Shown here in pieces: positions 7,107 to 46,340 of a stretch of 64,000 bases of DNA. How positions within the stretch are numbered: position 1 is the first letter of the stretch; each line of letters opens with the position of its first letter. This DNA comes from an uncultured Cohaesibacter sp. (GTDB taxonomy: Bacteria > Pseudomonadota > Alphaproteobacteria > Rhizobiales > Cohaesibacteraceae): NCBI RefSeq assembly GCF_963676275.1, contig NZ_OY781091.1, positions 4,607,001 to 4,671,000 of the forward strand, written 5' to 3'. A program made the translations under genes and the position numbers. The notes below the pieces were generated by a model, which saw only the letters and a program-made list of their open reading frames with translations, ran no database searches and had not been told where the DNA came from.

Positions 7107-7113
7107 TTTAATT

Positions 7114-31809: not shown

Positions 31810-31842
31810 GCCACCATCGATCGAGTGGAAGCAATCATTCAT

Positions 31843-31869
31843 ATTTCCGGGGGAATTCCTCCCGGAAAT
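31843..31869 (+). terminator. Hairpin after gntK
   Basis: ATTTCCGGG (31843-31851) pairs perfectly with CCCGGAAAT (31861-31869), starting 34 bp after the gntK stop. No T run follows, so it is a probable rather than proven terminator. Confidence 0.45.
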
Positions 31870-32261
31870 TACCGATCCGCCGATCAAATTCATCAGAAAT
31901 TACTATTGAACATATATTTTATATTACACAACGAAATCAATAGATCTAAAAAGTCAAAACAGCATTTATATATCGATCTATATTTCTGATTTTTTGAATT
32001 TTCCATCAATACAACCCAATAGTTTAAATAAAAATATCAAATTCACTTTAATAATTCGTCTCCAGCCTAGAATAAAGGCAAATGTTGGGCGGAAATTCAT
32101 TAGAATTATTTAAATTTCGTCTAATTGCCTTGCTATGCAGATCCCGTAAGATTCTGTCGATGCCGAGTCTCGAAAAAGCAAAATGTTGCTTCGAGGTCAG
32201 GCAGAATCAATTCGTGATTTCCGTCCGCCGCCCTTGTCGGCGTGACGCTGGAGAATGGATC
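31870..32261. other. AT-rich intergenic region without recognised gene
   Basis: This stretch is visibly AT-rich, mainly between about 31890 and 32060, with repeated TATAT-like runs. I see no convincing coding frame in it; the open frame from 32082 most likely becomes coding only at 32262. It may hold the promoter of the small membrane protein gene. Confidence 0.4.
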
Positions 32262-32531
32262 ATGTTCCTGCAAACCACCCCCGCGCCAATCATCGCTCGC
32301 AAGCGCATTTACACGCTCACCGGCATGATCAGCTTCGTTTCAGCCACTATCCTGATCGACACGCTCATCCTGTCGACAGCAGCTATTCTCGTATGGGCAA
32401 TCGGGAGCATATTGATGCTTTCCATTGCACCCTTCCTGACCTTTGCCACAATCATTCTGGTCCCCGCATTCATATTGGCGGTGAAAGTCGGAATGATGGT
32501 CTTTGATGTCGAAACGACCCCGGAGAGCTAG
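32262..32531 (+). CDS. Small two-helix membrane protein, unknown function
   Basis: An 89-residue protein with two long hydrophobic segments (TLTGMISFVSATILIDTLIL and a second one around ILMLSIAPFLTFATIILV, with further hydrophobic residues between). ATG 32262 has GGAG about 8 nt upstream; the open frame extends upstream to 32082, but that part does not look like protein. No family is recognised. It is isolated between gntK and the convergent ECF ATPase gene. Confidence 0.5.
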   Translation: MFLQTTPAPIIARKRIYTLTGMISFVSATILIDTLILSTAAILVWAIGSILMLSIAPFLTFATIILVPAFILAVKVGMMVFDVETTPES

Positions 32532-32609
32532 GAAGCCATCAGGCTTTGCCCATTGCATCGGCTAGCGGCCTGCCTCGGAAGTGTCGCTCAAAGCGTCAAG
32601 CCAAGGGCC

Positions 32610-32637
32610 AGAGGCAAGAGGCAAGAGGCAAGAGGCA
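32610..32637. repeat. Four perfect tandem copies of a 7-mer
   Basis: AGAGGCA is repeated four times head to tail without a mismatch. The array is in the non-coding gap between convergent genes. It is a candidate slippage-prone locus. Confidence 0.85.
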
Positions 32638-32665
32638 AAGCCAAGTTAGAAGCAGGAATTCCAGT

Positions 32666-32696
32666 AAAAAGGCGAGAACCCTAAAGGGTCTCGCCT
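32666..32696 (-). terminator. Terminator at the end of the mad/ECF-ATPase transcript
   Basis: On the minus strand GGCGAGACCC pairs with GGGTTCTCGCC (one bulged base) and is followed by five T. The hairpin overlaps the stop codon of the ECF ATPase gene. Confidence 0.8.
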
Positions 32697-33445
32697 ATTT
32701 CTATATCATCAGCAATCGCCAGCTTTTCCATCGCCTCGCGATAGGCAGGAAGCACCTCATCAGGCCTTCCATCCTGCACCAGCTGACCATGCTCAATCCA
32801 GATGATACGGTCGAATTGCTTCAGATGCTCGAAATCGTGAGTGACCAGCACAAGCTGCTGTTCAAGCCGCTCCAGCCTTGCGAAGAGCTTGCGGGATGTT
32901 GGCAGATCCAACCCCGCGAAAGGCTCGTCCAGCACGATCACGCCGGGCTCCATTGCCAATACCGACATCAGGCAAACCAAATGGCGCTGCCCCTGGCTGA
33001 GAGCATCGGTGCCACGCTCTGCCCATGACAGCAATCCGAAATCTTCCAGAAACGCCCTTGCCTTCTCTCTCGCCAGTTTGCGGCTTCCAAGCAGGCTCTC
33101 CAGCCCGAACGCGATTTCTTCCTCAACAGAGGGAAAGATGATCTGATGATCGGGATTTTGAAAGATAATTCCGATTGTTGCAATCGCCGCAGCGCGATCC
33201 TTGAAAACATCCACGCCATTGACCCGGACATCGCCGACCTTCGGCTCTATCAGTCCGCACATAATGCGCGACAAGGTCGATTTGCCGGAACCATTGCGCC
33301 CGATCAACCCGATGCGATGTTCCTGCAGTGACAGCGAAAAGTCACTGAACAGGCTCTTTTCTCCGATGGAATGCGACAGATTGCTGATCGATATACCGCA
33401 TTGTTGAGCGATTTTTATTGCTTTTGGATCTGCAAGAATATTCAT
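32681..33445 (-). CDS. bioM: ECF-type ABC transporter ATP-binding protein, probably biotin transporter ATPase BioM
   Basis: A 254-residue CbiO/EcfA-type ATPase. Walker A GLIGRNGSGKSTLSRIMCG, Q-loop FQNPDHQIIFPSVEEEIAFG, signature SQGQRHLVCLMSVLA, Walker B GVIVLDEPFAGLDLPTS and switch His VTHDFEHL. The FQNPDxQ motif is characteristic of energy-coupling-factor ATPases. The end sequence VLPAYREAM resembles BioM. No BioN or BioY gene is adjacent. Its place at the end of a biotin-dependent enzyme operon supports a biotin role, but this is inference. ATG 33445 was chosen by domain start. Confidence 0.72.
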   Translation of the reverse strand: MNILADPKAIKIAQQCGISISNLSHSIGEKSLFSDFSLSLQEHRIGLIGRNGSGKSTLSRIMCGLIEPKVGDVRVNGVDVFKDRAAAIATIGIIFQNPDHQIIFPSVEEEIAFGLESLLGSRKLAREKARAFLEDFGLLSWAERGTDALSQGQRHLVCLMSVLAMEPGVIVLDEPFAGLDLPTSRKLFARLERLEQQLVLVTHDFEHLKQFDRIIWIEHGQLVQDGRPDEVLPAYREAMEKLAIADDIEIGETL

Positions 33446-33476
33446 AACACTCGACTTCCCATAACAGCGATCACGT

Positions 33477-33521
33477 GGGGGCACCAGGTAGCAGCCGCAT
33501 CAAAAGCCACCCGGCGCCCCC
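33477..33521 (-). ncRNA. Stable 16-bp hairpin in the leader between the HutP-like gene and bioM
   Basis: Stem halves are 33477-33492 and 33506-33521, with a 13-nt loop. The outer six pairs are GGGGGC with GCCCCC. The inner ten, read on the minus strand, are GCCGGGTGGC with GCTACCTGGT and need three G-U pairs. On the plus strand those positions would be A-C mismatches, so the structure favours minus-strand RNA. It ends 31 nt before the bioM start and lacks a T run. It may be a regulatory leader or a processing site. Confidence 0.5.
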
Positions 33522-33560
33522 ATTCCGCGATCCGGCGCAATAGACAAACCAGACCGAGGT

Positions 33561-33974
33561 CTAGATATGCATGATGCCGAAGCCGATGCGCTCGTGATTG
33601 GTCTCGGGATGGAAAGCCGATTCACCATAGGCTGCGACGGCAAGCCATGTCCCATCATTAACGATGGCAACCTTGAGCTTGAGCTGGCTTTCACCCGCCA
33701 CCAAAGGCGCGATGCCGCTCAAAGCCTCAAGACCCGCATGGATAACGGCATGAATCTCGTTGGGTGTCTTTTTGACAACGCCACCATGCAGAGCCGAACC
33801 GACCACCGTCTTGGAGAAATTCTTTTTAACAAAACCAAGGGCGCCGGATACATAGGTAACAGCGATCTTGACCCCCTCTCGGCTATAGACCTCCCGTACG
33901 CCAGATTCTTCTTCGTCGGAGGACATGGCGATGAGCATCGCCATTTTGCCAATTCGAGTGGTATCCTGTTTCAT
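33561..33974 (-). CDS. HutP family protein (RNA-binding antiterminator family)
   Basis: A 137-residue protein resembling Bacillus HutP in length (about 150) and pattern: RIGKMAMLIAMSSDEEESG at the N terminus, NEIHAVIHAGLEALSGIAPL mid-protein and WLAVAAYGESAF...ERIGFGIMHI at the end. The two histidines of the IHAVIHA segment and the last His align with HutP metal ligands. HutP binds mRNA with Mg2+ and L-histidine to prevent termination. No histidine-utilisation gene is near. It follows madM by 373 bp and lies between two hairpins, so it could control mad mRNA. ATG 33974 has GAGG upstream. Confidence 0.68.
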   Translation of the reverse strand: MKQDTTRIGKMAMLIAMSSDEEESGVREVYSREGVKIAVTYVSGALGFVKKNFSKTVVGSALHGGVVKKTPNEIHAVIHAGLEALSGIAPLVAGESQLKLKVAIVNDGTWLAVAAYGESAFHPETNHERIGFGIMHI

Positions 33975-34282
33975 TATCGTGCCTCGTGAGCTTCAGGTTG
34001 ATTATTGGCCATGCCGGAACAAGTGCCTTAGGGCAAACCCGTTCATGATCGACAAAAGCGCATTCATTTTGACGCCGAATTCAGCCTCCCCGAACCGGTG
34101 GAACCTTTTAGCGCACCGAGACGAATTGGGGTATCAAAACTTTACTAATATTTACGCAAAAACACTTAGAAAAGATCAAAAACCTTGACCATTGCGTTCT
34201 GTTGCGCCATGCCTTGGAATGGCAGTGCCGCGCCGGAAATAACGTGGACCTGTTTGAAGCCTGTCCTGTCATCCCCGACGCG

Positions 34283-34332
34283 GTCGGAAGGGCTCGAGAT
34301 CGGTCAACCGAGAAGCCGATTTCGAGTCCGAC
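34283..34332 (-). promoter_or_regulatory. Stem-loop immediately after madM
   Basis: On the minus strand GTCGGA-CTCGA-A-ATCGG pairs with CCGAT-C-TCGAG-CCCT-TCCGAC: 16 base pairs with a bulge. The structure starts 16 nt after the madM stop. No T run follows. It may protect the mad mRNA 3' end, mark a processing site, or act with the HutP-like protein encoded next. The remaining gap to 33974 contains no gene; a weak promoter-like pair lies at 34131-34159 (minus). Confidence 0.5.
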
Positions 34333-34347
34333 TTTTACTTGCAGTGG

Positions 34348-35121
34348 TTAGCCAACGATGGCCTGCAAGATGAAGTAGCAAACGGACGGACAAACCAGGC
34401 AGCCGAAGCCGGTGTAGAATGTCGCAACCATTGCACCATAAGGAACCAGCTTGGCATCCGTTGCTGCAAGACCTGCAGACACACCGGAAGTGGTTCCCAT
34501 CAGGCCACCATAGACCGTAGCCGCAGCGGGCGTGGTCAGGCCAAAGCGTTTGGCAAGGAACGGCGTCAGAAGCATAACTGCGATGGATTTCACAACGCCG
34601 GCGGCGATTGACAAGGCAATCACTTCCGAAGTTGCCCCCAGTGCCGTACCGGTAACCGGGCCAACAATGAAGGTCACAGCGCCTGCACCAATTGTCGACA
34701 TGGAAACGGAGTCTGTATAGCCGAAGGCATAAGAGACAGCCGCACCAATGAAGAATGACATAAAGGTGGAGATAACAAGAGCCAGCGTGCCGGCAAGGCC
34801 AGCCTTTTTCAGCTCTTCAAGCTTGATGCCGAAAGCGGTTGCGATGATGCAGAAGTCGCGCAGCATCGAGCCACCCATAAACGCCATTCCCGAGAAGAAG
34901 GCGATATCGGCAATACCGTTCTTGCCGCCGGTCATAGTACCGCCGACATAAGCCAAAACCAGACCGAGAATAATAGCAATGGCGGAGCCATGCATACGAC
35001 CCTTGGTCAGGTGTTTTGAAACAAAGTAGGAAATCCAGGTCAATCCGCCAACGACAACGAAGGCGGTGATCAGAGAATATTTGGTCGCTACTTTAAAAAC
35101 GATTGTTTGCAAAATATCCAT
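34348..35121 (-). CDS. madM: Malonate transporter subunit MadM
   Basis: A 257-residue membrane protein with about 8 hydrophobic helices. Recognisable family stretches are VKVATKYSL-like start, YVGGTMTGGKNGIADIAFFS, GSMLRDFCIIATAFGIKLEE and VTFIVGPVTGTALGATSEVI. With MadL it imports malonate, in the known systems together with cations. It is 13 bp downstream of madL and is the last structural mad gene. Confidence 0.92.
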   Translation of the reverse strand: MDILQTIVFKVATKYSLITAFVVVGGLTWISYFVSKHLTKGRMHGSAIAIILGLVLAYVGGTMTGGKNGIADIAFFSGMAFMGGSMLRDFCIIATAFGIKLEELKKAGLAGTLALVISTFMSFFIGAAVSYAFGYTDSVSMSTIGAGAVTFIVGPVTGTALGATSEVIALSIAAGVVKSIAVMLLTPFLAKRFGLTTPAAATVYGGLMGTTSGVSAGLAATDAKLVPYGAMVATFYTGFGCLVCPSVCYFILQAIVG

Positions 35122-35134
35122 GATTTCCTACCCT

Positions 35135-35515
35135 TTATTCTGCGGCTTCTTCAGAAGCACTCGTATCTGCAAGAGCAGAAAGTGGACGGATCAGCAAGAA
35201 ACCGGCAAACACAGCTACAAGGCCTGCAATGATCGCGATTGCACCACCACTGGCAGCAGCAACAACATTCTGTTTTGCAGCCATAGCGACAACAACCGGG
35301 ATATACATTGCATTCCAGAACAGAATGCCGCTTTCAGCAAGTTTGGATAGTTTGTTCTGATCCATCAGACGACGGGTAATAAGCACCAGGAACAGCATAG
35401 CAAAGCCTACGCCGCCAACGTTGGCAGAAACGCCCAACGCGTAGCCAAGTCCCTGACCGAGCATGCTACCAACGAGCATGCAAGCCCCCATTATTGCCAG
35501 GCCATAAATTACCAT
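35135..35515 (-). CDS. madL: Malonate transporter subunit MadL
   Basis: A 126-residue membrane protein with four hydrophobic helices (MVIYGLAIMGACMLVGSMLG, GVSANVGGVGFAMLFLVLIT, ILFWNAMYIPVVVAMAA, GGAIAIIAGLVAVFAGFLLI). This is the standard MadL size and sequence. It partners MadM. The ending (SASEEAAE) is acidic. Confidence 0.92.
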   Translation of the reverse strand: MVIYGLAIMGACMLVGSMLGQGLGYALGVSANVGGVGFAMLFLVLITRRLMDQNKLSKLAESGILFWNAMYIPVVVAMAAKQNVVAAASGGAIAIIAGLVAVFAGFLLIRPLSALADTSASEEAAE

Positions 35516-35584
35516 TGTCTCAACTCCCTTTTCTAATAGTTATGGAACGGTGGCTTTTTACAAAGCCACCGCAGGGATGAATAA

Positions 35585-35800
35585 TCATGCAGGGTCTACG
35601 ACCAGAATGACTGCACCAGGTTTCAGGCGATCGCCTTCTTTCGCAGCGATAGAAGAAACAGTGCCGTCGATTGGGGAAGGCATCTTGTTTTTCATTTTCA
35701 TCGCTTCGACGATGCAAAGGATGTCGCCTTTGGATACGGTCTGACCGACAGTTACTTCGATTTTCTCGATCAGACTTGGCATTTTAGTTTTGATTTCCAT
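35585..35800 (-). CDS. madF: Biotin carrier protein MadF of malonate decarboxylase
   Basis: A 71-residue free-standing biotinyl domain: MEIKTKMPSLIEKIEVTVGQ, then VEAMKMKNKMPSPIDGTV with the biotin Lys at residue 35. It carries the carboxyl group from the MadCD transferase to the membrane decarboxylase MadB. BirA, encoded in the same operon, is the expected ligase. Presence of this gene shows that the malonate decarboxylase is the biotin-dependent kind. Confidence 0.93.
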   Translation of the reverse strand: MEIKTKMPSLIEKIEVTVGQTVSKGDILCIVEAMKMKNKMPSPIDGTVSSIAAKEGDRLKPGAVILVVDPA

Positions 35801-35858
35801 TGCTCTTTCTCCTTTTATCTTGTGTCACGAGACAATTCTCGCGACGAGAAATAGAAAA

Positions 35859-36554
35859 TTACTCTGCCGCCACAACCAGTGTTTTCAAAACACTGTCTCG
35901 GTTGAGGAGACAAACATCTGTCAAGCTTTTTGCCAGGATGTTGGGGGACTTACTGACGAGCTCGCTGAGTTTGACACCATTGCCATCAGCAAGGATGACT
36001 TCAGCATCTGTGGCTCGGCCATAGTCTTGGCCAATATTCGAGATCGCCAGATAGAATTCTTTCAGGCAGTCATGTGAAGCTGCCTTGACAACAAGATCGA
36101 GATCGGACGAGGCGCTGGTATAGCCATGCCCGGTATGGATCTCAAGAGCCGCTGATCCGATCAACCCCATCTGCAAGCCACAACGCTCGGCAGCAAGGGT
36201 GATCTCATCGAGCATGGCCTGAAAGGCTGGCGACGCCAGTCGGGCACCCGATACAAGATCAAACGGTCTGATAATGCGCGCGATCATCTGCTTCTCGACA
36301 AGAAGCGAACTTCTCACCCGCACCCCTTCCACACGGAAGGGGAAGGAAAGCCCAAGCTGGACCTGATCGGCACCGACCTCCTGAACGGGGCGGCAAACGA
36401 TGCCGGGCAGCGGATGCTGGTGCAGGAATGCTTCTACCTTCGGCGCGACATCATGCTGTCGGCAACATGGGAGCAATCCCTCCACGGCCACTTCGGCCAG
36501 ACGGGCGTGATAGGCAGGGACGAAATCGACCAGATCATGACGCTGAAGCTGCAT
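35859..36554 (-). CDS. madK: Malonate decarboxylase holo-ACP synthase (phosphoribosyl-dephospho-CoA transferase)
   Basis: A 231-residue protein of the MdcG-like nucleotidyltransferase family. The core is GLIGSAALEIHTGHGYTSAS followed by SDLDLVVKA; GSxA...DLD supplies the metal-binding acid pair. IARIIRPFDLVSGARLASPA precedes it. It would attach 2'-(5''-phosphoribosyl)-3'-dephospho-CoA to the Ser of MadE, using the precursor made by MadG. The start is 2 nt after the madH stop. The symbol rests on position in the cluster. Confidence 0.82.
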   Translation of the reverse strand: MQLQRHDLVDFVPAYHARLAEVAVEGLLPCCRQHDVAPKVEAFLHQHPLPGIVCRPVQEVGADQVQLGLSFPFRVEGVRVRSSLLVEKQMIARIIRPFDLVSGARLASPAFQAMLDEITLAAERCGLQMGLIGSAALEIHTGHGYTSASSDLDLVVKAASHDCLKEFYLAISNIGQDYGRATDAEVILADGNGVKLSELVSKSPNILAKSLTDVCLLNRDSVLKTLVVAAE

Positions 36555-36556
36555 GC

Positions 36557-37657
36557 CTATCTCCCTTTCGTCCAGGTTGGATCATTTTTGGCGGTGGACT
36601 GCAGCGCCAGCTGCGCCTTGACCAGATCATCGAACATCACGGTCTTTTCTGGGCCGACCAGACGCAAGGCGTCGGCATTGGCCTCATCGCGCTCGCCCAT
36701 TCCGGGCACCAGCTCCAGCACTGTGGCCTCGGCATTGGTTTCAAGATCCGGACAGACCTTTACGATCCGCCCCTTGATGCGCAAAATGGTTCGCGCCACC
36801 TTGTCGATGGTCTCGGCCGAAGCCTGCGTCGTCGCCTTGACCATCACCTCATATTCGGGATGGGTACGCTGGCGCCGATAAGTCAGGATATGGCCTGCCG
36901 GATTGCAGACATGGCCGGTCGTGGTAACGGGAAAACTGTCAGCCATTGGCAGTCCGCCGACCACCAGTTCGCGATATTTGGATCCCGCCGGAGAAGGAAC
37001 CAGAGAAAGGTCGTCCCGCAGGGGAACACCATCCAGAACCAGCCACCCGAATTCCTGACAGCCATAGAGATCATGGACAGAAAATCCCGATCCGCGAACC
37101 TCTTCGATCAATTCCAGATCCAGCGGAGTGCCAGCGGCAAGGATCTTGCATTTTTCCGGCAGATATTCAGCCAGTCCGAGCTTCTTGGCTTCTGCCAGAC
37201 TGGCGCGGATGAAGGAAGATTCCCCGACAATGACATCGGGCTTGTTCTGGCACAATTTGGCAATGAAGGAGTCGCGGCTGGAGCGGGTAAGGAATTCCCA
37301 GCTGATGCCAGCGCGTTCAAGCGCCACCTTCGAGAATACATTCACCAGTGGCGCATAGGTCACCAGCATTCGTTGCCCGGCGGATATTTCCAGTGCATCG
37401 AAAATCCGCCGAGCAACGTCGCATCGCTGCGGAAGCTCGGTTTCAACCACGCCTACGATATTCTGAAATGCTGAAGACCCCGTCGTAAATGTCATATAAC
37501 TGAGGTTGAAGGGCACGTGAACCTCTTCTATGACATGCGCTGCTGTCGGGCCGTTAATGCCTTTATCGGCAAGACAGCGGCGCGGCATCTCCTCAAGCGA
37601 GGGGGCACTTGAGAGCACGTCGGCGATTTCAACAAATTGATTCAGAATATCAGGCAT
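36557..37657 (-). CDS. madH: Acyl-carrier-protein:acetate ligase MadH (adenylate-forming)
   Basis: A 366-residue adenylate-forming ligase related to phenylacetate-CoA ligases, shorter than usual. Seen are LSYMTFTTGSSAFQNIVG (phosphate-binding loop region), ILAAGTPLDLELIEEVRGSG, LYGCQEFGWLVLDG and a C-terminal IKGRIVKVCPDLETNAEAT. It reloads the decarboxylase carrier protein with acetate at the cost of ATP, giving the acetyl-ACP that MadA exchanges for malonyl-ACP. It lies between madD (16 bp) and madK. Confidence 0.85.
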   Translation of the reverse strand: MPDILNQFVEIADVLSSAPSLEEMPRRCLADKGINGPTAAHVIEEVHVPFNLSYMTFTTGSSAFQNIVGVVETELPQRCDVARRIFDALEISAGQRMLVTYAPLVNVFSKVALERAGISWEFLTRSSRDSFIAKLCQNKPDVIVGESSFIRASLAEAKKLGLAEYLPEKCKILAAGTPLDLELIEEVRGSGFSVHDLYGCQEFGWLVLDGVPLRDDLSLVPSPAGSKYRELVVGGLPMADSFPVTTTGHVCNPAGHILTYRRQRTHPEYEVMVKATTQASAETIDKVARTILRIKGRIVKVCPDLETNAEATVLELVPGMGERDEANADALRLVGPEKTVMFDDLVKAQLALQSTAKNDPTWTKGR

Positions 37658-37672
37658 GGTCGTTACTCCCGA

Positions 37673-38566
37673 TTAGGCGGCTCCGGGGAGAAAGTGTTCC
37701 GAAACCGCATCCCATTCCTTATTCAGCAATGCGATCACTGTTGGACGAACAGCGCGACCTTCGCGCTCTGCTCCGATGGCAGCACGGCCAAGCGGGCCAA
37801 GGCTGTCTTCCTGTCCATTCACCTTTGCAGCGCGCACAGCTTCAACATGCTTGATGGTTACTTCACGCATGTCGCTGATCTGCGAGACAATTTCCTCGAC
37901 ACCGCCGAGCTGGTAGAAGAATTGCGGTCCTGCTGCGAAGACCGGATTTTTCGAAGCCAGCGTTTCAAGAAGTTCGATATCCTTCTTGATGATTCGGGAA
38001 ATGGAGGTGATCGGCATCACATGGATCATGGTGCCAAAGCTGGCATCGAGCGCCAGAATATGGTCAGCCTGCAAGCCATGGCACAGGAACGCGCCAGAGA
38101 TCGCACGACCCACCACGAAGGCAACGATCGGATGACCAGCCAGACGAGCCTCTGCCAGAGCCAGCTGATAGGCACCGGTAGACTTGTTCATGCCGAAAAT
38201 TTCCTCGACCTTGCCTGGGCCGTTGCCCGGGGTGTCGACGACGAGCACGATGGCACGCTTGTCAGCCTTGTCCTTGTCGGCATCGGCTTCGACGGTGGCA
38301 TAAACGGCCTGAGCCATTTTGTAGCCTTCTTCCATACCGATGATACCGGCATAGACGACAGGGAATTTCATATTCATCGCCTCGGCATCGCTGGCGATAA
38401 CCGTGACTTCCTTGCCATCCAGTTTCGCTGTGCCAACCACAGCGCCGGGTCCGAATTCCGGGTCATCAAAGCTTTTCTGGGCAATCTGATTTTCAACGAA
38501 GCTGTCAGCATCGCAAATCAGATCAATCGCCATTTTGCCTTGACCCAATAGGGTTTCGATTTCCAT
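37673..38566 (-). CDS. madD: Malonate decarboxylase carboxyltransferase subunit MadD
   Basis: A 297-residue crotonase/carboxyltransferase-fold protein, the gamma-like half of the transferase. Motifs are VVDTPGNGPGKVEEIFGMNK, VGRAISGAFLCHGLQADHIL and SFGTMIHVMPITSISRI. The GGG-like oxyanion site is replaced by GRAISGAF as in MdcE/MadD. With MadC it moves CO2 from malonyl-S-ACP to biotin on MadF. Confidence 0.92.
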   Translation of the reverse strand: MEIETLLGQGKMAIDLICDADSFVENQIAQKSFDDPEFGPGAVVGTAKLDGKEVTVIASDAEAMNMKFPVVYAGIIGMEEGYKMAQAVYATVEADADKDKADKRAIVLVVDTPGNGPGKVEEIFGMNKSTGAYQLALAEARLAGHPIVAFVVGRAISGAFLCHGLQADHILALDASFGTMIHVMPITSISRIIKKDIELLETLASKNPVFAAGPQFFYQLGGVEEIVSQISDMREVTIKHVEAVRAAKVNGQEDSLGPLGRAAIGAEREGRAVRPTVIALLNKEWDAVSEHFLPGAA

Positions 38567-38602
38567 TAGATCTCTCCGTAATTTCTTTGCGATCGCAACA
38601 GG

Positions 38603-39559
38603 TTAGACGCTCAGCCGTTTGACACTCGCACGGAACTCGTCGAGCGGAACGCTAGCCAGTTTGATGGGATCGGCATTGCCGGCATGGGCCCAGACATAGC
38701 GGGAGTCGCTCGGCTGCATTTCAGCAGCGAGAGCTACGGCGCGCAGCTGCTTGTCGACCATTTCGACAGAGCCGATACGGCGATATTGCTCGAAGCTGTC
38801 ACGCGGCTGCTTGGCCAGTTCCTCGACCTGTGCGCGGAAGGCGGCAATCGTGTCATCAACGATGAAGTTGCAATCACCCATCACATATTTGTGGCGACCA
38901 CCGGTGGTGCGGTAAACCAGAGCACGGTCAGCGGAGTCGAATTCGTCCTTGCCCATTTCCTGCTCGATCACTTCAGGACCGGTCAGGCCGAGGCGACCAA
39001 ACTCGCTCATGATGATGACGTCGGTTGCAGCCGCAACGAAGCCCATACCACCAAAACAGCCGACCTTGGAGCCGATCAGGGTGATGACAGGAACTTTCTT
39101 GCGTGCCTTCTGCAGCTGATCCATGACTTCAGCATGGGCCAGCAGACCGGCATTGGCTTCATGCAGACGCACGCCACCGGTTTCGAAGGAGATCACGACG
39201 ATCGGCTTCTGCACTTCGCTGGCATCGGGAAATTCCTTTTCCAGACGTTCGCAGAAAGCAATCGCGGCCTGAATGGTACCAACCATCTTGGCACCGCCCA
39301 CTTCACCAACAGCACCGCCGATGAAACGGCCTTCCTGAGAAATCACGAAGGTCGGTGTTTCGCCGATTTTGCCGATACCGGTTACAACGCCGTCATCAAA
39401 CTCAACGGCATCGCCCAGCGTTTCCAGATGCGGGCTGGTGATACGGTCGAAAGGACCGACAAATTCTACAAAGCTACCAGCATCAACCAGCGCTTTGGCT
39501 CGCTCTCTGGCACCGGCCTCGAGAAAGCTTTTTGTTTGCAAATTTTCCCAATTTGACAT
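38603..39559 (-). CDS. madC: Malonate decarboxylase carboxyltransferase subunit MadC
   Basis: A 318-residue beta-type carboxyltransferase subunit: SFVEFVGPFDRITSPHL, GGAVGEVGGAKMVGTIQAAI, SFETGGVRLHEANAGLLAHA, GSKVGCFGGMGFVAAATDVI and RLGLTGPEVIEQEMG. It is of normal length and pairs with MadD. 23 bp separate it from madE. Confidence 0.92.
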   Translation of the reverse strand: MSNWENLQTKSFLEAGARERAKALVDAGSFVEFVGPFDRITSPHLETLGDAVEFDDGVVTGIGKIGETPTFVISQEGRFIGGAVGEVGGAKMVGTIQAAIAFCERLEKEFPDASEVQKPIVVISFETGGVRLHEANAGLLAHAEVMDQLQKARKKVPVITLIGSKVGCFGGMGFVAAATDVIIMSEFGRLGLTGPEVIEQEMGKDEFDSADRALVYRTTGGRHKYVMGDCNFIVDDTIAAFRAQVEELAKQPRDSFEQYRRIGSVEMVDKQLRAVALAAEMQPSDSRYVWAHAGNADPIKLASVPLDEFRASVKRLSV

Positions 39560-39582
39560 CTCGGTATTTCCTTTCCTCTCGA

Positions 39583-39906
39583 TCAGTCTGCGGGGCTCAT
39601 GGCTTCGGCCAGCGTTTGCCGCAGGCGCAGAGAGACGACGGCCGGGGTCGCATTGTTATCGTTGATTTCGATGGCGACATTTCCGATGTTGGAACGCTCG
39701 ACAAAAGCGCCCAGAACACGCTGCCAGAGCGCATCGAAACCGGACACCGGCGTGACGATCTTGACGCTGACTTCACCGCCGAGATCGGCAGGCATCATCA
39801 GGACTTCCAAATCGCTCGAACCGGTAACCCCGAAATGGGCTTGCGTCTTGATTTCCGCGGTTGGATTCGCGCTTTTACATTTAAACTCAATGGTATTGAG
39901 TGCCAT
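39583..39906 (-). CDS. madE: Malonate decarboxylase acyl carrier protein MadE
   Basis: A 107-residue ACP of the MdcC/CitD kind, not the fatty-acid type. The prosthetic group site is the first Ser of GVTGSSDLEVLMMP (about residue 30), matching the GSGDLEVL motif. It carries acetyl and malonyl groups on a phosphoribosyl-dephospho-CoA arm installed by MadG/MadK. Confidence 0.9.
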   Translation of the reverse strand: MALNTIEFKCKSANPTAEIKTQAHFGVTGSSDLEVLMMPADLGGEVSVKIVTPVSGFDALWQRVLGAFVERSNIGNVAIEINDNNATPAVVSLRLRQTLAEAMSPAD

Positions 39907-39924
39907 TTCATGTACCTCCTTGGC

Positions 39925-41589
39925 TTACCAGTTGCGGAACCGTGCTGGTGGCTCGTAAAGACCACCGGACCAGGTAACCAGCTCTTGCATATTCTTGGCA
40001 GCCAGCATGTCGCGGTTCGCGCGATCGCGATTGATGCCGAGATCTTCTGGCGTCATGACGATTTTTGCGTCCCGCAGACGACGGGTTTGATCGGGATCGG
40101 CTTTCAGGCCAAATTCGGTGAAACCGGCGACAGCGCGCATGGCGGCGGTGCGGGTTTCCAGATCTTTACAGCGGCTGAGATAGGCAATGCCTTCTTCGGT
40201 CACGACGTGGGTAACGTCATCGCCATAGATCATGACTGGAGGCAGATCGAGACCGGCATTCTGAGCCAGTTTCCATGCATCAAGTTCTTCCACGAAGGAA
40301 GGCGCCAGCCCTTCACCGAAGGTTTCACAGCCCTGAACAACCAGACGCTTGCCGCGTGGCATCTTGCCGATCACTTCTTCAAGATTTGGCTGTTCCTGAC
40401 CACATTTCAGCCAGGTATCGCTCGGATGACGACGGCCCTTGGCATCACAGCCCATGTTTGGAGCACCACCGAAGCCGGCGACGCGGTTGGCTGTTGCTGT
40501 CGAGGAGTTGCCATAAGGGTCCATCTGCAGCGTACCGCCAATGAACATGTCGATCGCATAGTGACCGGCAGTCTGGGCAAAGGCACGGTTGGAACGCAGG
40601 CTGCCATCAGGACCGACAAAGAAGACGTCGGAACGTTCAGCAACATATTTTTCCATACCCAATTCACCGCCGAAGCAGTGGATGGTATCAACCCAGCCTT
40701 CTTCGATCGCAGGGATCATGGTCGGATGCGGGTTGAGGATCATGTGGGTGCAGCATTTGCCCTTCAGGCCCAGCTCTTCACCATAGGTCGGCAGCATCAA
40801 CTCGATAGCCGAGGTCAGGAAGCCGATACCATGGTTCATGGAGCGAACGCCATATTCGGCATAGATGCCCTTGAGGGCAAGCATGGCCTGAAGAATGTGG
40901 CTTTCCTTGATCAGCGCCGGATCGCGCGTGAACAGAGGCTCGATGAAGAATGGCTGCGGAGATTCGATCACCGCATCGATCCAGTCAGCCGGGATGTCAA
41001 CGCGCGGCAGCTTGTCGACGATCTCGTTGACCTGAGCGATCACGATGCCGTTACGGAATTTGGTAGCTTCGACGATGGCTGGCGTATCTTCGGTGTTGAA
41101 ACCGGTATAGAGGTTGCCTTCACGGTCGGCCTGATAGGCGCAAATGAGGGAAACCTTCGGCGTCAGATCGAGGAAATAGCGGCCAAACAGCTCGAGATAG
41201 GTGTGAATCGCACCAAGCTCCAGCTTGCCTTCCTTGATGAATTCGGCAACGCGACCGGACTGCGGTCCACCGAAAGCAAAGTCGAGCTTTTTGGCAATGC
41301 CAGCTTCGAACAGGTCAAGATGGGAGGCCAGCGGCACAGCCGACTGCACCATGTGCAGATCGTAAATCTTGGACTTGTCGACTTTCAAAAGGGACTCGGC
41401 AAGAAAATCGGCCTGCTTCTGGTTGTTGCCTTCGATATTGACCAGGTCGCGAGGACGGATCACCGCCTCCAGCAGAGCGACAGTATCCTCTGCCTTAACC
41501 TGTTTGCCCGACCCGATGAACTGACTGGCTTGCGCCATTCGCTCAGCGGTATCTGAGGCCAGGTTGTTCCATTTTTTCTGTTTTGTCAT
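39925..41589 (-). CDS. madA: Acetyl-S-ACP:malonate ACP transferase MadA
   Basis: A 554-residue protein with the length of MdcA/MadA. Characteristic sequence includes WNNLASDTAERMAQASQFIG, IRPRDLVNIEGNNQKQADFL, LTPKVSLICAYQADREGNLY and NRVAGFGGAPNMGCDAKGRR. It swaps the acetyl group on MadE for malonyl, starting each turnover. Its start overlaps the birA stop by 4 nt (ATGA). Confidence 0.93.
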   Translation of the reverse strand: MTKQKKWNNLASDTAERMAQASQFIGSGKQVKAEDTVALLEAVIRPRDLVNIEGNNQKQADFLAESLLKVDKSKIYDLHMVQSAVPLASHLDLFEAGIAKKLDFAFGGPQSGRVAEFIKEGKLELGAIHTYLELFGRYFLDLTPKVSLICAYQADREGNLYTGFNTEDTPAIVEATKFRNGIVIAQVNEIVDKLPRVDIPADWIDAVIESPQPFFIEPLFTRDPALIKESHILQAMLALKGIYAEYGVRSMNHGIGFLTSAIELMLPTYGEELGLKGKCCTHMILNPHPTMIPAIEEGWVDTIHCFGGELGMEKYVAERSDVFFVGPDGSLRSNRAFAQTAGHYAIDMFIGGTLQMDPYGNSSTATANRVAGFGGAPNMGCDAKGRRHPSDTWLKCGQEQPNLEEVIGKMPRGKRLVVQGCETFGEGLAPSFVEELDAWKLAQNAGLDLPPVMIYGDDVTHVVTEEGIAYLSRCKDLETRTAAMRAVAGFTEFGLKADPDQTRRLRDAKIVMTPEDLGINRDRANRDMLAAKNMQELVTWSGGLYEPPARFRNW

Positions 41590-42434
41590 GAAATGGACCT
41601 CGTATGATCAAGTTCAGTTTGCGGCACATCGATGTACCGCATTTCGCCCGAGTAAAAGCGGCATGTCCTCCCGCCTCGCTCGCGTATCAGGAGACAGCCG
41701 TCTGGACCCAGACCGACAATGTCTCCCACTCCGGAAAAGTCCGGTATTTCGAATTCGACAGTGCGCCCCAACGTGCAGGATTGAGCGACCCAGGCCTTGG
41801 CGACCGGATCAAAACCTTCCTCGCACCAGCGCGACCACCAGAGGGCAAAGTTTGAAAGGATGGCTTCCACCAGTTGCTTGCGGCAAACGCCGCCACAGCC
41901 GGCTTCAAACAGCGAGGTTGCGATTGACCGCAATTCCTCTGGGAATTCATCTTCTCGCAAACTGACATTCAGACCGATTCCGAGGATGACGAAATCCGGA
42001 TCACCTTCTGCATTGACACAGGATTCCGCCAGAATGCCGCACAATTTCCGCCCGCCGATCAGAATGTCATTGGGCCATTTGACCTGTGCGCCTTTCGCCC
42101 CGATCTGATGGAGCGCATCCAGCACAGCAACAGCACTGAGCAGCGTGATCTGGGAGGCATTCATCAGCGACATTTCCGGCCGCAGCAGCATGGACATCGA
42201 GATCCCGGCGGACGGTTTGGAGAACCAGCCGCGATTTCTCGTGCCATATCCAGCAGTCTGATGATCGGCGACGAGCACAGTGCCCTGTGCCTCTCCTGCC
42301 CTTGCCCGCTCCATCAACAGAACGTTCGTGGACTGAGCTTCGCGCAATTCATGAATCACCCAGTTTATTCCCCCCTTCGGGGCTTCTTTCTGATCGGCAA
42401 TTCTTTGCTGAATTTGACTGCTGGCGGGTGCCAT
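41586..42434 (-). CDS. birA: Biotin-protein ligase inside the mad operon
   Basis: A 282-residue biotin ligase without an N-terminal DNA-binding domain (class I). The biotin/ATP site HQTAGYGTRNRGWFSKP matches GRGRxGR-type motifs, and KWPNDILIGGRKLCGILAES is the catalytic lysine region. A C-terminal SH3-like cap follows. It covalently attaches biotin to MadF Lys35. ATG 42434 is preferred over GTG 42440 by spacing to AGAG. Location between madB and madA is unusual compared with the cluster order I know. Confidence 0.9.
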   Translation of the reverse strand: MAPASSQIQQRIADQKEAPKGGINWVIHELREAQSTNVLLMERARAGEAQGTVLVADHQTAGYGTRNRGWFSKPSAGISMSMLLRPEMSLMNASQITLLSAVAVLDALHQIGAKGAQVKWPNDILIGGRKLCGILAESCVNAEGDPDFVILGIGLNVSLREDEFPEELRSIATSLFEAGCGGVCRKQLVEAILSNFALWWSRWCEEGFDPVAKAWVAQSCTLGRTVEFEIPDFSGVGDIVGLGPDGCLLIRERGGRTCRFYSGEMRYIDVPQTELDHTRSIS

Positions 42435-42514
42435 TTTCACTCTCTGGACACTTGGGTCTAACGCTTGGGGAAGAAGCCGCCTGAATAATCAGGCGACTCC
42501 AGGAGTTGCGGGAA

Positions 42515-43723
42515 CTATTGGACAAGACCAATGGTTGAGGCGAAAACGCCAACTGCAATTGCGGACACGATCACACCGCAGATCGAGGCACCCATAGCGA
42601 GAGGCATGACCATCGCATAAGGGTTGGCAGCGGTCGCAGCCTGCTGTGCCAGCTTCGCGGTAGAAGGCATGCAGGACACGCCAGCAATACCGGTTGCAGG
42701 GTTGTAGGTTCCTTTGGAGATTTTCCAGACGAACCAGCCACCGAGCAGACCACCCACACCGGAGATAGCCAGAGCGGAGATACCAAGCACGAGCAGCACG
42801 GCAACGCGCGGATCAAGCAGCGTACCGGCTTCACAGAGCACGCCAAGCATCAGGCCAAGGAACAGGGTGGAAGAGTAGGTAACGGTCTTTTCCAGCAGTT
42901 CCTGATAAGGTCCGATTTCCGCTTCCTTGATGGCAACACCCAGGAAGAAGGACAGGATCAGCGGAGCAGCAACCGGCAGCAACAGACACAGCACGGCAGC
43001 CATGACGATGGTGAAGATGAACTTCGCTTCGCGGGAAACTTCCGGGAACTCGATTTCTGGCTCGATTGCGCGATATTTCTCAGGCACGATCCATCTGATC
43101 AGATAAGGATATCCGGCATAGGTCAGCGAGAGATACAGATAGGCAATGATGGAGATCGGAACGAACAGATCCTTGGCCATGACCAGCGAGGCAAACAGAA
43201 CCATCGGGCCATCAGCACCACCGATCGATGCAGCAGCAGCGGCTTCACCCGGCGTAAGGCCGAAATAGTAACCCACGATGAGGGTGACAAAGGTACCAAG
43301 TTCAGCGAACAGGGCGACGCAGATGCTTGCCCATGGACGTGCCAGAATGAAGGTAATGTCAGCCATCGAGCCAATGCCGATGAACAGCATGCAGGCGATC
43401 AGCGAGTTGGTGAAGGTGAAGTTGTAAATCGGCTGCAGGAAGTCGATCTGCATGATATTGACCAGCGCGGACGGGTCAGACACCAGCGGATCAAGGAACA
43501 GCGTGCCGATTTTCTGCGCTTCAAGGAACATAACGCCACCGTTGACGCACATCATGCCAAGGCCCATTGGCACCATGATCAGCGGTTCAAGCTTGCGTTT
43601 AAAGCCCATCAGCGCGAGGACGAAACCAAGCACCATCATCGCAAGGCGTGAAAAGGCGATTACCGGATCCTGGACGAACATCGTCCCGATACCGGGGAAC
43701 ATGTATATGAGTTGTTCAAACAT
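42515..43723 (-). CDS. madB: Carboxybiotin decarboxylase MadB (Na+ pump subunit, OadB/GcdB/MmdB family)
   Basis: A 402-residue polytopic membrane protein. It has the invariant SIGGADGPMVLFASLV (the Asp that in OadB is essential for Na+ transport and decarboxylation), MGLGMMCVNGGVMFLEAQK and GIAGVSCMPSTAKLAQ. It decarboxylates carboxybiotin-MadF, consuming a proton from outside and exporting Na+. ATG 43723 has GGAGAAAG upstream; a TTG six codons earlier is also in frame. A 45-residue membrane protein gene ends 14 bp upstream. Confidence 0.94.
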   Translation of the reverse strand: MFEQLIYMFPGIGTMFVQDPVIAFSRLAMMVLGFVLALMGFKRKLEPLIMVPMGLGMMCVNGGVMFLEAQKIGTLFLDPLVSDPSALVNIMQIDFLQPIYNFTFTNSLIACMLFIGIGSMADITFILARPWASICVALFAELGTFVTLIVGYYFGLTPGEAAAAASIGGADGPMVLFASLVMAKDLFVPISIIAYLYLSLTYAGYPYLIRWIVPEKYRAIEPEIEFPEVSREAKFIFTIVMAAVLCLLLPVAAPLILSFFLGVAIKEAEIGPYQELLEKTVTYSSTLFLGLMLGVLCEAGTLLDPRVAVLLVLGISALAISGVGGLLGGWFVWKISKGTYNPATGIAGVSCMPSTAKLAQQAATAANPYAMVMPLAMGASICGVIVSAIAVGVFASTIGLVQ

Positions 43724-43737
43724 CTCTTTCTCCGATA

Positions 43738-43875
43738 TCAACTAGCGTCTTCGTCACCATGACCCTGGAAGGCCTTGGCCATAAGAACGACGAACCCGAT
43801 CACACCGAACGAAATAACGGCTGTGATCGCGTAGGCCATCAGTGAGTAAACTATGATATTCAAGAATGCCTCCAT
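43738..43875 (-). CDS. Small single-helix membrane protein between madG and madB
   Basis: A 45-residue frame (MEAFLNIIVYSLMAYAITAV, then ISFGVIGFVVLMAKAFQGHG and a DEDAS end) starting 11 nt after the madG stop and ending 14 nt before madB. It is one hydrophobic helix followed by a short polar tail with His. Size, topology and position recall small accessory subunits of other sodium-pumping decarboxylases (gamma/epsilon chains such as OadG and MmdE). A GGAG is 15 nt before the ATG. I infer a structural role with MadB; similarity was not tested. Confidence 0.65.
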   Translation of the reverse strand: MEAFLNIIVYSLMAYAITAVISFGVIGFVVLMAKAFQGHGDEDAS

Positions 43876-43886
43876 TAGGCGGGCAG

Positions 43887-44840
43887 TCAGCTCCGGGAGT
43901 GAGCACTGCCTTGGTGGTTCTGAATCATGGATTCTTGAGGGAAAACCTGGTGTTCCAGCAGATAGACCGCAGCGGTAACTGACAGTAGATCAGCAGCCCC
44001 ACCAGGGCTGATATTGCGGGCGATGCATGCGTCATTCAGGGCTGCGATCTGTCTCAGCCCCTCACTCGTCAAGACATTCCCGCTGGCGCAAATTCTTGCA
44101 GCTTCGTTTCGAATGAAGTCCTGGGCCTTCTTCCCACCCCGCCACAAGACGGTGGTGTCATCCGCTTTGGCGATCAGCTCGATCAGACTGTAGACGAGGG
44201 CATGATTGAGATCACACCCGGCATCCAGAGCCTCTATCAAGGCCGGCAATCCGAAGTTCAGAACCGTCGGAAAGCCGGCCTCGACCTCACCACGTATTCC
44301 GGTTGTGCCATGATCGCGATACAAAATTTCTCCGGCAGTCTTTGCCTCAATGGGATTGGCGTTGATCAGCTCACGCTCGCAGATGCCTTCGACAATCTTG
44401 GCAGATTGCTTGAGAACATCCTTGGCTGTCATGCCTCCGCCTGTCTTGTGACTGCGGCCGGCTGCTGCACTGATCACACCCGCGCAGAAAAGCGCTCCAC
44501 GCTGGGTATTCACCCCATGCGTAGAGCGGAGCAGTCTGCGGTCAAACTCTCGACCAAGATCACGGATAATGGGAAGAATGGTAAAGGCTGCACCGTCATG
44601 CATCAGACCAACGCGCGCACAGGCATACAAGCAGGGCGCTATCGCAGCCGAAGAAAGCATGAAGCTTTGCAGATCCATGTCTTTGTGCGACCCCATGCTG
44701 TGGGGTGCAACCAATCCCGGCTTGGGATAGGACGTGACTTCGAGCAACAAACCGGACAGGACGGCACTGCCGATTGTCCAGATCATACGCTCGTTCGCGT
44801 CAATGCTTGTGAGAAATTGTGCTTGCGTGGACAAGTCCAT
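43887..44840 (-). CDS. madG: Triphosphoribosyl-dephospho-CoA synthase MadG (CitG/MdcB family)
   Basis: About 317 residues of the CitG/MdcB family: LLLEVTSYPKPGLVAPHSMG, SHKDMDLQSFMLSSAAIAP, STHGVNTQRGALFCAGVISA and KADDTTVLWRGGKKAQDFI. It joins dephospho-CoA and ATP to make the precursor of the MadE prosthetic group. It is the first gene of the mad operon. The start is uncertain: ATG 44840, an upstream GTG at 44912, or ATG 44786. None has a clearly better ribosome site. Confidence 0.88.
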   Translation of the reverse strand: MDLSTQAQFLTSIDANERMIWTIGSAVLSGLLLEVTSYPKPGLVAPHSMGSHKDMDLQSFMLSSAAIAPCLYACARVGLMHDGAAFTILPIIRDLGREFDRRLLRSTHGVNTQRGALFCAGVISAAAGRSHKTGGGMTAKDVLKQSAKIVEGICERELINANPIEAKTAGEILYRDHGTTGIRGEVEAGFPTVLNFGLPALIEALDAGCDLNHALVYSLIELIAKADDTTVLWRGGKKAQDFIRNEAARICASGNVLTSEGLRQIAALNDACIARNISPGGAADLLSVTAAVYLLEHQVFPQESMIQNHQGSAHSRS

Positions 44841-45191
44841 GACTGGGAAATCTCGGAGATGTACACCACATCGGGTGCGCAGACCTTTTCCCGGAACCGC
44901 ACATAAATGCACGACCCCTAGTCGGACAAAAGGTCAGGACTTCACCGTTACGAAATCACAAAGTCACTTGGCTTGTCTGATGGTGGCACATACAGCTTTT
45001 TGAAGACTGACATGTCATCATCGTGAATGCAGCATCTACAAAATCACGATTGAAAGGAAGGCCCGAAGCTGCCAGACGCGCTTCCTGTTGGGGCCGGAAG
45101 CTAGAACTGGAAACCGCCGGAGTCAATACGTACAAACACGCAAGTCATTGGTCCTATATAGTCACTCTTCGACGATTCCCGGCAAAATAGT

Positions 45192-45206
45192 TTGAAGCCT
45201 GTTCAA
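45192..45206. promoter_or_regulatory. Dyad upstream of the mad operon
   Basis: TTGAAGCCTGTTCAA is a perfect 5-bp inverted repeat with 5-bp spacer, about 355 bp upstream of madG. The length and T-N11-A form fit a LysR-type or similar operator. No regulator gene of the mad operon is adjacent. Confidence 0.3.
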
Positions 45207-45234
45207 GCAAGAGATTGACTGCATGATAGCACAA

Positions 45235-45248
45235 TTGATCTATCTCAA
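45235..45248. promoter_or_regulatory. FNR/FnrL-like box upstream of the mad operon
   Basis: TTGATCTATCTCAA matches the FNR consensus TTGAT-N4-ATCAA in 9 of 10 defined positions. It is about 395 bp before madG in an AT-rich stretch, which is somewhat far but compatible with a long leader. It would link malonate use to low oxygen. Confidence 0.35.
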
Positions 45249-45545
45249 ATAACTATCGGTTGAGACAGCAAAAACAATCGCAATACATGCAATCTGGATT
45301 CGAGTTTCAGACTAGAAAGCAAAAGATAAGGTTATTTATTCTGGTGACTGTGAATTCTATATGTATTTCATAAAGATAAACCAAGTCCGATGACCGAGTT
45401 ATCCTTGAAAGCACCATCCTTGTCGACAGGGCACGTCGGCAACAGATTAGTTATAACACACTCACATAAATTACCGATTCCGAAACGCCAAATGCCACAG
45501 CTCAGGATGGTAGGAACAGAGGGGCAAGGAGCGCCCCAAAGGCCA

Positions 45546-45872
45546 TCACGCGGAACGAAAGAGATGAGCCGCCAACCACTCCGATTGCAAAATTGCTCCT
45601 CTGCCAGCGCCCGTCATTTTCAAAAGCAAAAACGCACCATCTCGACGATCATAATCGTCCAAGAGGCAATGACCCTCGACAGCAACCGGCACATGCCGCA
45701 GCATCGGCTGAACAAACTCCATACCCATCAACAACATAGCCAGAGGGCGTTTGAACCGGAGGCCCCTGTGCTGCAAAGCGGGATAAAAATGGGGAGAAAG
45801 CGTGAGCCCTGCGGCAAGAAACGGGACGGAGGCAATGGCACAGGATCGCCACCAGACAGCCCATCTATTCAC
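45546..45872 (-). CDS. Hypothetical protein, doubtful
   Basis: A 108-residue frame starting with GTG, with no recognised family. Composition looks protein-like (RFKRPLAMLLMGMEFVQPML, DDYDRRDGAFLLLKMTGAG), it is in the same direction as the mad operon and in a stretch that looks more GC-rich than its flanks. The ribosome site is weak. The complementary 176-residue frame (45390-45920, plus) is Gln/His/Arg-rich and looks like the shadow. It could be a remnant of a decayed gene. Confidence 0.3.
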   Translation of the reverse strand: MNRWAVWWRSCAIASVPFLAAGLTLSPHFYPALQHRGLRFKRPLAMLLMGMEFVQPMLRHVPVAVEGHCLLDDYDRRDGAFLLLKMTGAGRGAILQSEWLAAHLFRSA

Positions 45873-46316
45873 CCCGCTTTATGCAATCGCCACGGGCGTC
45901 ATCTGTTCGGAAAATCTTGATTATACACCGCCCATGGAACGGACAACGCCAAACAGCGCAACTCGGTAAATATGCGTATAAATTTCCGTGAGGCTGTAAT
46001 ATTTGATCTTGTCTCTCGCTCCACTATTTTTGCTTCCTGCTATCTAGGCAAGAAAAAGGCACCTGATCTGCACGGTCTCCGATTGGCATGGATTCAATCA
46101 AAAAGAGAAAGAGCAGGAGAAGTCAGGTCGCTTCAGACCATGTTTCAGACACCGTCAGGCACCATTTTCTTATCCCGATTCATTGCAAAATTTGTTGTGA
46201 ATTGAGCAACATTCATTGCCCTGATGTCCCCTTTTTCTAAGTCGACACTAGGCCTACCGCGCTTGATCTGCCCTCCCCCGAAAAGCAAACGAGCCCGCTG
46301 AGAGGCGTAACTTCAA
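45873..46316. other. Intergenic region, no supported gene
   Basis: I see no family-like protein in either strand. A 77-residue plus-strand frame (45972-46205) has a mixed composition and no ribosome site, and was not accepted. Confidence 0.4.
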
Positions 46317-46340
46317 TAAAAAAGGCCGGTTGCCCGGCCT
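46317..46340 (-). terminator. Rho-independent terminator of the tctC-tctB-tctA-argE unit
   Basis: AGGCCGG pairs with CCGGCCT around a 4-nt loop; on the minus strand a run of at least six T follows. It lies 27 bp after the argE stop. Confidence 0.85.

Follow-up and report, generated by a model that had tools for sequence, protein, structure and literature searches.

The 64,000-nucleotide (nt) window analysed here (uncultured Cohaesibacter sp., assembly GCF_963676275.1, contig NZ_OY781091.1; all coordinates are window positions) carries on the minus strand, from 44840 to 34348, a complete mad operon for a biotin-dependent malonate decarboxylase of the Malonomonas type. It is followed by a gene for a HutP-family protein. 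Our conclusion, to which we assign a probability of roughly 0.7, is that this is an acquired mad operon under RNA-level control by HutP, which would act by antitermination, and that a small open reading frame (ORF) in front of madB encodes a fixed subunit of MadB. Two features look new, as far as the open-access papers searched can show: a HutP with an altered pocket and matching leader elements belongs to the Mad system across phyla, and Mad-type MadB has a micro-ORF as its constant companion. The same searches turned up no paper that connects HutP with malonate.

HutP-family genes in Mad-type malonate decarboxylase clusters

HutP is the RNA-binding antiterminator of the Bacillus histidine genes and is triggered by a metabolite and a metal. 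The HutP-family gene of the window (33561-33974, minus strand), which encodes a putative RNA-binding regulator, lies downstream of madM and is present in a single copy in the genome. Its product matched PF09021 with 117 bits (cut-off 25). The AlphaFold2 model of the protein had a mean predicted local distance difference test (pLDDT) score of 93, and when the model was used as a Foldseek query, the ten best matches were all HutP chains (E 5e-10 to 1.4e-7), the next match having an E value of 0.04. The NCBIfam equivalog model of HutP, NF002838, gave 42 bits only, and its cut-off of 155 was not reached.

Among the 18 genomes of the genus, MadH was found only in the genome of the window, and the same was true of HutP. 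At the order level MadH was present in 7 of 297 genomes and PF09021 in the same seven. At the class level, among 385 genomes, only that of the window had MadH or an above-cut-off HutP; the HutP matches in three further genomes of the class were below the cut-off and lay within frames of 540-564 amino acids (aa). The idea that HutP is common among the relatives of this strain was rejected because HutP presence follows MadH.

The cluster survey covered the best 80 of 96 MadH loci, which are referred to by L numbers. Mad-type MadB was encoded in 62 of the 80 loci, and HutP in 58 of these 62 (in 49 of the 51 with full flanks). HutP was found in one of the five loci with an OadB-like subunit and in one of the 13 loci without MadB, ten of which are cut short. 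HutP-bearing clusters occur in Proteobacteria, the phylum of Malonomonas rubra, Firmicutes, Actinobacteria and Deferribacteres. The records of Rhodobacter capsulatus SB1003 and Klebsiella pneumoniae label the gene product HutP family protein, and in R. capsulatus SB1003, a laboratory strain, hutP and the small ORF are within the same mad cluster. Two separate observations may be added. In R. capsulatus SB1003 the whole hutP-mad-ATPase-EcfT-BioY cluster is on plasmid pRCB133, and the loci L042, L046, L058 and L075 (Phascolarctobacterium-type and related) have two copies of hutP, each followed by terminators.

The ligand pocket of Mad-linked HutP

The pocket was compared in 58 Mad-linked HutP sequences including that of the window. 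Four enterobacterial-type rows were kept apart, and L022 (wrong stretch aligned), the first L056 match (spurious) and L061 and L067 (both partial) were dropped from the count. The window protein shares the predicted fold and three His positions with B. subtilis HutP: H73 and H77 were kept in 58 of 58 sequences and H138 in 57, and the window has all three. The Mad-linked proteins differ from B. subtilis HutP in that R88 and E90 were retained in none of the 58, this region having a 4-residue deletion, in that the position of T140 was Arg in all 58, and in that the window protein misses the equivalog cut-off. In B. subtilis HutP, H73, H77 and H138 are, we take it, the metal-binding residues, and R88 and E90 presumably lie beside the histidine ligand. 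In the enterobacterial-type HutPs (L047, L052, L055 and L059) H73, H77 and the invariant Arg were lost together, as would be expected if one site was formed by these residues. The residues suggest that the pocket of the Mad-linked HutP may bind a malonate-metal chelate. The four enterobacterial-type proteins could be natural ligand-blind variants or decayed regulators.

A repeated element in the leaders of mad operons

When the 700 nt upstream of madG were compared by BLASTN with other leaders (27 leaders compared), one conserved island was detected at 44971-44930, common to L012, L013 and L016. The element reads AAGTGACT TTGTGATT TCGTAACG GTG, with GTG or GTA recurring with an 8-nt period. 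The complete leader RNA element (44882-44971, minus strand) consists of the GUG/GUGA repeats (44971-44934) and a 54-nt hairpin (44935-44882, -20.2 kcal/mol), whose sequence varies between loci. When a four-seed profile was run on both strands of 81 sequences, the nine best matches were all in leaders. With the iterated profile eight loci had E <1e-5, a value that non-seed leaders reached only once they had been included in the profile; all eight matches lay 90-175 nt ahead of MadG in sense orientation.

The motif was counted in the leaders of 30 of 31 named non-Firmicute loci, which came from Proteobacteria, M. rubra and two Deferribacteres and also included L068 and the contig L052; L027 was left out because it lacks both MadG and MadB. 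AGTG-N4-NGTG occurred 15 times in 13 of the 30 leaders (shuffle mean 0.91, maximum 6 in 300), and AGTG by itself had 77 occurrences in sense and 15 in antisense orientation. The hut leader of Bacillus has NAG clusters, whereas the window and 12 other leaders have the 8-nt AGUG/GUG spacing, and the target here is mad. Plain NAG-N4 triplets as in hut were rejected as a description of these leaders, which show AGTG/GTG with an 8-nt period.

Folding was tested in 60-nt windows on 13 leaders; these had been selected for carrying the element or a looser version of it, and the hairpin played no part in the choice. The mean z-score had one clear minimum (-2.13) for folding windows starting 30 nt after AGTG, where 9 of the 13 leaders were under -1.5. 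Folding windows starting 10-40 nt before AGTG had positive mean z-scores. No sigma-70-type promoter was found in the leader of the window, and Rfam gave no match in window positions 31000-47500 at E values up to 1.

In Firmicutes and Actinobacteria terminators were associated with hutP. In 33 loci of these phyla, many of which are near copies so that the counts are not independent events, terminators were present in 26 of the 36 gaps after hutP versus 6 of the 158 other intracluster gaps, and in all 17 of the 300-nt leaders of a leading small ORF-madB pair. When only gaps of at least 90 nt were considered, the numbers were 26 of 27 after hutP and 6 of 51 elsewhere, and since the enrichment persisted, gap length is no explanation for it. 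The terminator stems often start with GAGAGAG, and many are preceded by ATAGTGG. The latter word, picked among the top k-mers behind ribosome-site and terminator words, was present in 10 of 67 non-redundant leaders versus 1.1 expected (30 shuffles). U-tract hairpins after AGTG motifs were also found in L052, L059, L021 and L025. At gathering level, the Rfam matches in six fetched loci were only T-box, ALIL, c-di-AMP and cobalamin elements.

MadB and the small ORF preceding it

The small ORF of the window (43738-43875, minus strand) lies 14 nt ahead of madB and encodes 45 aa, or 41 aa if translation starts at the TTG at 43863, which is the start position of most of the aligned relatives. One membrane-like hydrophobic stretch was recognised by eye. 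Among the best 80 of the 96 MadH loci the ORF was present in 62 of 62 loci with Mad-type MadB, in none of the five with an OadB-like subunit and in none of the 13 without MadB. The encoded proteins are 37-49 aa long, and in 34 aligned members Y10 and T18 were invariant and five further positions nearly so. The ORF of the window matched no NCBIfam or Pfam family. Weak Pfam matches to various other families of small membrane proteins (best E 0.0068) were scattered and are attributed to composition. The gene table used, which is incomplete, lists no gene in the gap that holds the ORF in R. capsulatus SB1003 and K. pneumoniae.

According to the available excerpt of PMC7274780, methylmalonyl-CoA decarboxylase (MCD) and glutaconyl-CoA decarboxylase (GCD) have a delta subunit homologous to the gamma subunit of oxaloacetate decarboxylase (OAD), and for malonate decarboxylase only MadB is named there. 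Like these subunits, the small ORF product is short, has one hydrophobic stretch and is encoded beside a beta-type subunit; it differs from them in having no profile match and no long C-terminal tail. Because its pairing with Mad-type MadB is fixed, and because gamma or delta subunits are named for the other pumps but not for Mad, the product is a candidate for the missing small subunit, and may be an unrecognised gamma/delta-like component of the MadB pump.

MadB was aligned with Salmonella OadB (PDB 6iva) in 63 Mad-type rows, the window included. MadB of the window retains D203, S382, N373, G377 and Y229 of OadB, and the first Na+-site residues D203 and S382 were each present in 63 of 63 rows. 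Substituting Asp203 or Ser382 abolished Na+ binding in OAD, as stated in the same excerpt (PMC7274780). The residues of MadB fit a Na+ pump of the Mad kind, and the protein probably transports Na+. In L032, L070, L074, L077 and L078 the mad cluster has an OadB-like B subunit; the small ORF is present in none of these loci, and HutP only in L070.

Origin of the operon

A prediction made earlier for this stretch (the original prediction) had suggested horizontal transfer and had proposed a phylogeny against Malonomonas as a check. A tree was built from concatenated MadA, MadC, MadD and MadH with FastTree, using 77 of 81 rows (L029, L049, L043 and L014 were dropped because a gene was missing). 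The window was placed in a Rhodospirillales-type group (six rows, support 100), next to other Alphaproteobacteria and apart from Malonomonas, Afifella and Rhodobium, the last two of which belong to families of the window's own order that also have MadH matches. In the nearest rows with full flanks (L012, L013 and L016) hutP likewise follows madM. Synteny was studied with four (L114-L117) of the ten genus genomes that have a copy of the flanking gene with at least 65% identity. It spans the neighbour gene and stops at 46314-46375, the mad-side end of that gene. The synteny break, the position in the tree and the fact that no other genome of the genus has MadH or HutP support the suggested transfer. 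The argument that had been given for it, an association chiefly with anaerobes that would make the system unusual here, is not supported: an alphaproteobacterial clade that includes Rhodobacter, Rhodoplanes and Afifella, among others, accounts for 21 of the 77 rows in the tree. On the sequences compared, the simplest reading would be a transfer between alphaproteobacteria, to which no direction is assigned.

Two observations stand beside these results. About 1.4 kb upstream of madG (44912-46320) is without a recognised gene; it contains a 108-aa frame (45546-45872) with no Pfam match and is possibly the remnant of an insertion event. The contig L052, from a metagenome-assembled genome labelled Sporobacter termitidis, has a mad cluster that was near-enterobacterial in the tree and was probably misbinned.

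Proposed mechanism and alternative explanations

In the proposed mechanism malonate would be imported by MadLM, MadA, MadE, MadC and MadD would carry out carboxyl transfer from malonyl-acyl carrier protein (ACP), with MadF forming carboxybiotin, and decarboxylation by MadB would be coupled to Na+ export. In the presence of malonate and a divalent metal, an oligomer of the HutP-like protein would bind to the GUG repeats of the 5' leader in their single-stranded form. The bound protein would keep the adjacent hairpin from terminating transcription, and expression of mad would be confined to conditions in which its substrate is available. As a fixed subunit of MadB, the 41-45-aa protein would take the place that gamma/delta subunits have in other decarboxylase pumps. 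We infer RNA binding, antitermination, malonate as the ligand, Na+ transport and the subunit role from the comparisons described above. According to the excerpt available of PMC7430163, HutP is a hexamer; with L-histidine and Mg2+ as activators it binds NAG repeats, and the hut terminator is kept from forming.

A wider proposition, whose chances seem to us evenly balanced, is that one branch of HutP, spanning several phyla, has exchanged histidine for malonate and opens AGUG-type mad leaders from Alphaproteobacteria to Firmicutes and Actinobacteria, that Arg140 and the His triad bind the malonate-metal chelate, and that the 37-49-aa protein is an obligatory MadB subunit. If this is true, Bacillus HutP would be one branch of a wider family with a re-tuned ligand pocket and with natural leader RNAs for comparison, and Mad-linked HutP would sense malonate and act on RNA, which would make it usable as a biosensor. 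Other decarboxylase Na+ pumps have a gamma/delta-like subunit, and the micro-ORF would provide its counterpart here.

Several observations weigh against the proposed mechanism. Four of the 62 Mad-type loci (L024, L057, L088 and L089) have no HutP, and since many of the rows compared are near copies of one another, the counts do not represent independent events. The strict 8-nt motif is missing from 17 of the 30 non-Firmicute leaders, and the seed-only profile was weak beyond its seeds (E 0.016 for L023, 0.14 for L019, 0.15 for L028, 0.93 for L020 and 0.98 for L027), the low E values of non-seed leaders being subject to the limit given above. In the folding test the z-score at +30 was weak in L012 (-0.8) and L022 (0.1), and in some leaders other folding windows were equally low, that of the window itself reaching -3.1 at +170. 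In Firmicutes and Actinobacteria, where the near copies have to be borne in mind, an AGTG-type motif stood close to the terminator in no more than 19 of the 36 post-hutP gaps and 2 of the 17 leaders that precede a leading small ORF. Among the Pfam matches of the 34 small-ORF members, at E values up to 10, there was no OAD gamma/delta family. Asn412 (second Na+ site), Arg304 and Asn311 are described as essential for OAD in the excerpt of PMC7274780. In MadB of the window N412 is replaced by Ser (63 Mad-type rows: N 34, S 17, G 10, T 1, Q 1), and R304 and N311 by Pro and Lys; in the Mad-type rows, with an indel in the alignment near 304-311, position 304 was Pro in 59 of 63 and position 311 Asn in 22 of 63. 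Since all three residues are variable or replaced across the Mad-type rows, they are not defining for the Mad family. Finally, no U-tract follows the hairpin of the window, and an intrinsic-terminator scan of its leader was at chance level (2 found, 1.8 expected). For these two reasons the role of the hairpin in alphaproteobacteria may be in Rho-dependent termination or in post-transcriptional control.

The same two results would suit an alternative in which HutP acts on mad RNA in alphaproteobacteria through translation or RNA stability and not through antitermination. Against this stand the U-tract hairpins that follow AGTG motifs in Firmicutes and in L052, L059, L021 and L025, and the location of the element, which at 90-175 nt upstream of the MadG start in eight loci is too far away for direct masking of the ribosome site. 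We consider control of this kind rather unlikely. It is also conceivable that an ordinary mad operon was transferred with HutP riding along, still sensing histidine or controlling some other target in trans, and that the leader element is a transcription-factor operator in DNA. The excerpt of PMC7430163 describes HutP only as a histidine-dependent regulator of hut, and both the 42-bit match to the equivalog model and the many leaders lacking the strict motif are in keeping with this view. It is, however, hard to reconcile with the co-occurrence of HutP and MadH, with the presence of HutP in 58 of 62 Mad-type clusters, with the loss of R88 and E90 and the gain of an invariant Arg, with a motif that is on the sense strand and has a hairpin at a fixed distance, and with the terminators after hutP in Firmicutes and Actinobacteria. 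This explanation appears improbable. As to the small ORF, its extreme shortness and its location 14 nt before madB would also agree with a leader peptide or a translational coupler for madB. A protein that is conserved across phyla, with the invariant and nearly invariant positions found in the 34 members, and that is paired with Mad-type MadB in 62 of 62 loci and with OadB-like subunits in 0 of 5, makes such a role quite unlikely and argues for the fixed MadB subunit.

Gene content of the operon

The genes on the minus strand are, in this order, madG, the 45-aa ORF, madB, birA, madA, madE, madC, madD, madH, madK, madF, madL and madM, with intergenic gaps of at most 74 nt. Nine products exceeded NCBIfam equivalog or equivalog-domain cut-offs: MadB, the carboxybiotin decarboxylase and probable Na+ pump subunit (42515-43723; TIGR03136, 742 bits, cut-off 597; PF03977), the BirA-type biotin-protein ligase (41586-42440; TIGR00121, 167 bits, cut-off 83), the acyl-carrier-protein transferase MadA (39925-41589; TIGR01110, 937 bits, cut-off 789), the acyl carrier protein MadE (39583-39906; TIGR03130, 115 bits, cut-off 84), the carboxyltransferase subunits MadC (38603-39559; TIGR03133, 376 bits, cut-off 278) and MadD (37673-38566; TIGR03134, 304 bits, cut-off 237), the MdcG-type holo-ACP synthase MadK (35859-36554; TIGR03135, 116 bits, cut-off 100), and the malonate transporter subunits MadL (35135-35515; TIGR00807, 138 bits, cut-off 113) and MadM (34348-35121; TIGR00808, 367 bits, cut-off 236). 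MadG (43887-44840), a triphosphoribosyl-dephospho-CoA synthase of the CitG/MdcB type, matched PF01874 with 234 bits and TIGR03132 with 279 bits, just below the cut-off of 282. The biotin carrier protein MadF (35585-35800) matched PF00364 with 66 bits. MadH (36557-37657) had no Pfam or NCBIfam match and is 55% identical to the M. rubra protein; we take it to be a putative ACP:acetate ligase, and its counterpart is named AMP-binding protein in the R. capsulatus record. Downstream of madM the HutP-family gene is followed by a gene for an ECF-type, BioM-like ATPase (32681-33484, minus strand), which scored 169 bits with TIGR04520 and did not reach the cut-off of 315.

The original prediction had listed the mad genes, the small membrane ORF and birA with their order, strand and short gaps, and all the genes that it named were found as stated, as were the motifs EAMKM in the translation of madF and GGADGP in MadB. 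Its gene list for the interval was thus correct; the HutP gene, the ATPase, the leader element and the possible role of the small ORF had been missed. The order G B A E C D H K F L M that it had ascribed to M. rubra agrees with the M. rubra record (L033). Its assignment to the membrane-coupled type, and not to the soluble Mdc type, is supported by the TIGR03136 equivalog score of MadB and by the single MadA-family gene: the sole PF16957 match in the genome is this madA, so that there is no sign of a soluble Mdc system. The operon is an ordinary new member of the Mad type, an operon type that is already known.

The small ORF before madB is also present in the M. rubra cluster. The two clusters differ in the position of the HutP gene, which is upstream of madG in M. 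rubra and downstream of madM in the window. From its position, we guess that hutP is one of the published genes madY or madZ. There is no birA inside the M. rubra cluster, whereas the window has birA between madB and madA and the BioM-like ATPase gene after hutP.

Biotin supply genes and a second decarboxylase cluster

In R. capsulatus SB1003 genes for an ATPase, EcfT and BioY directly follow madM, whereas the window has the ATPase alone there. A role of this single ATPase in completing a biotin transporter was rejected because a bioMNY set exists elsewhere in the genome (BioY was recognised by PF02632, the neighbours BioM and BioN were named by eye). The genome also has a second OAD-beta gene (PF03977), located in another biotin-dependent decarboxylase cluster, L104 (G000:C1:440000-455000), at 6852-10408. 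This cluster encodes a beta subunit, a biotin carrier, a 137-aa delta-like protein and an MmdA-type carboxyltransferase, beside oxidoreductase-like frames; all but the beta subunit were named by eye. Right after the BioM-like gene, at window positions 32600-32640, a short tandem repeat of tgcctct (minus strand) was noticed by eye.

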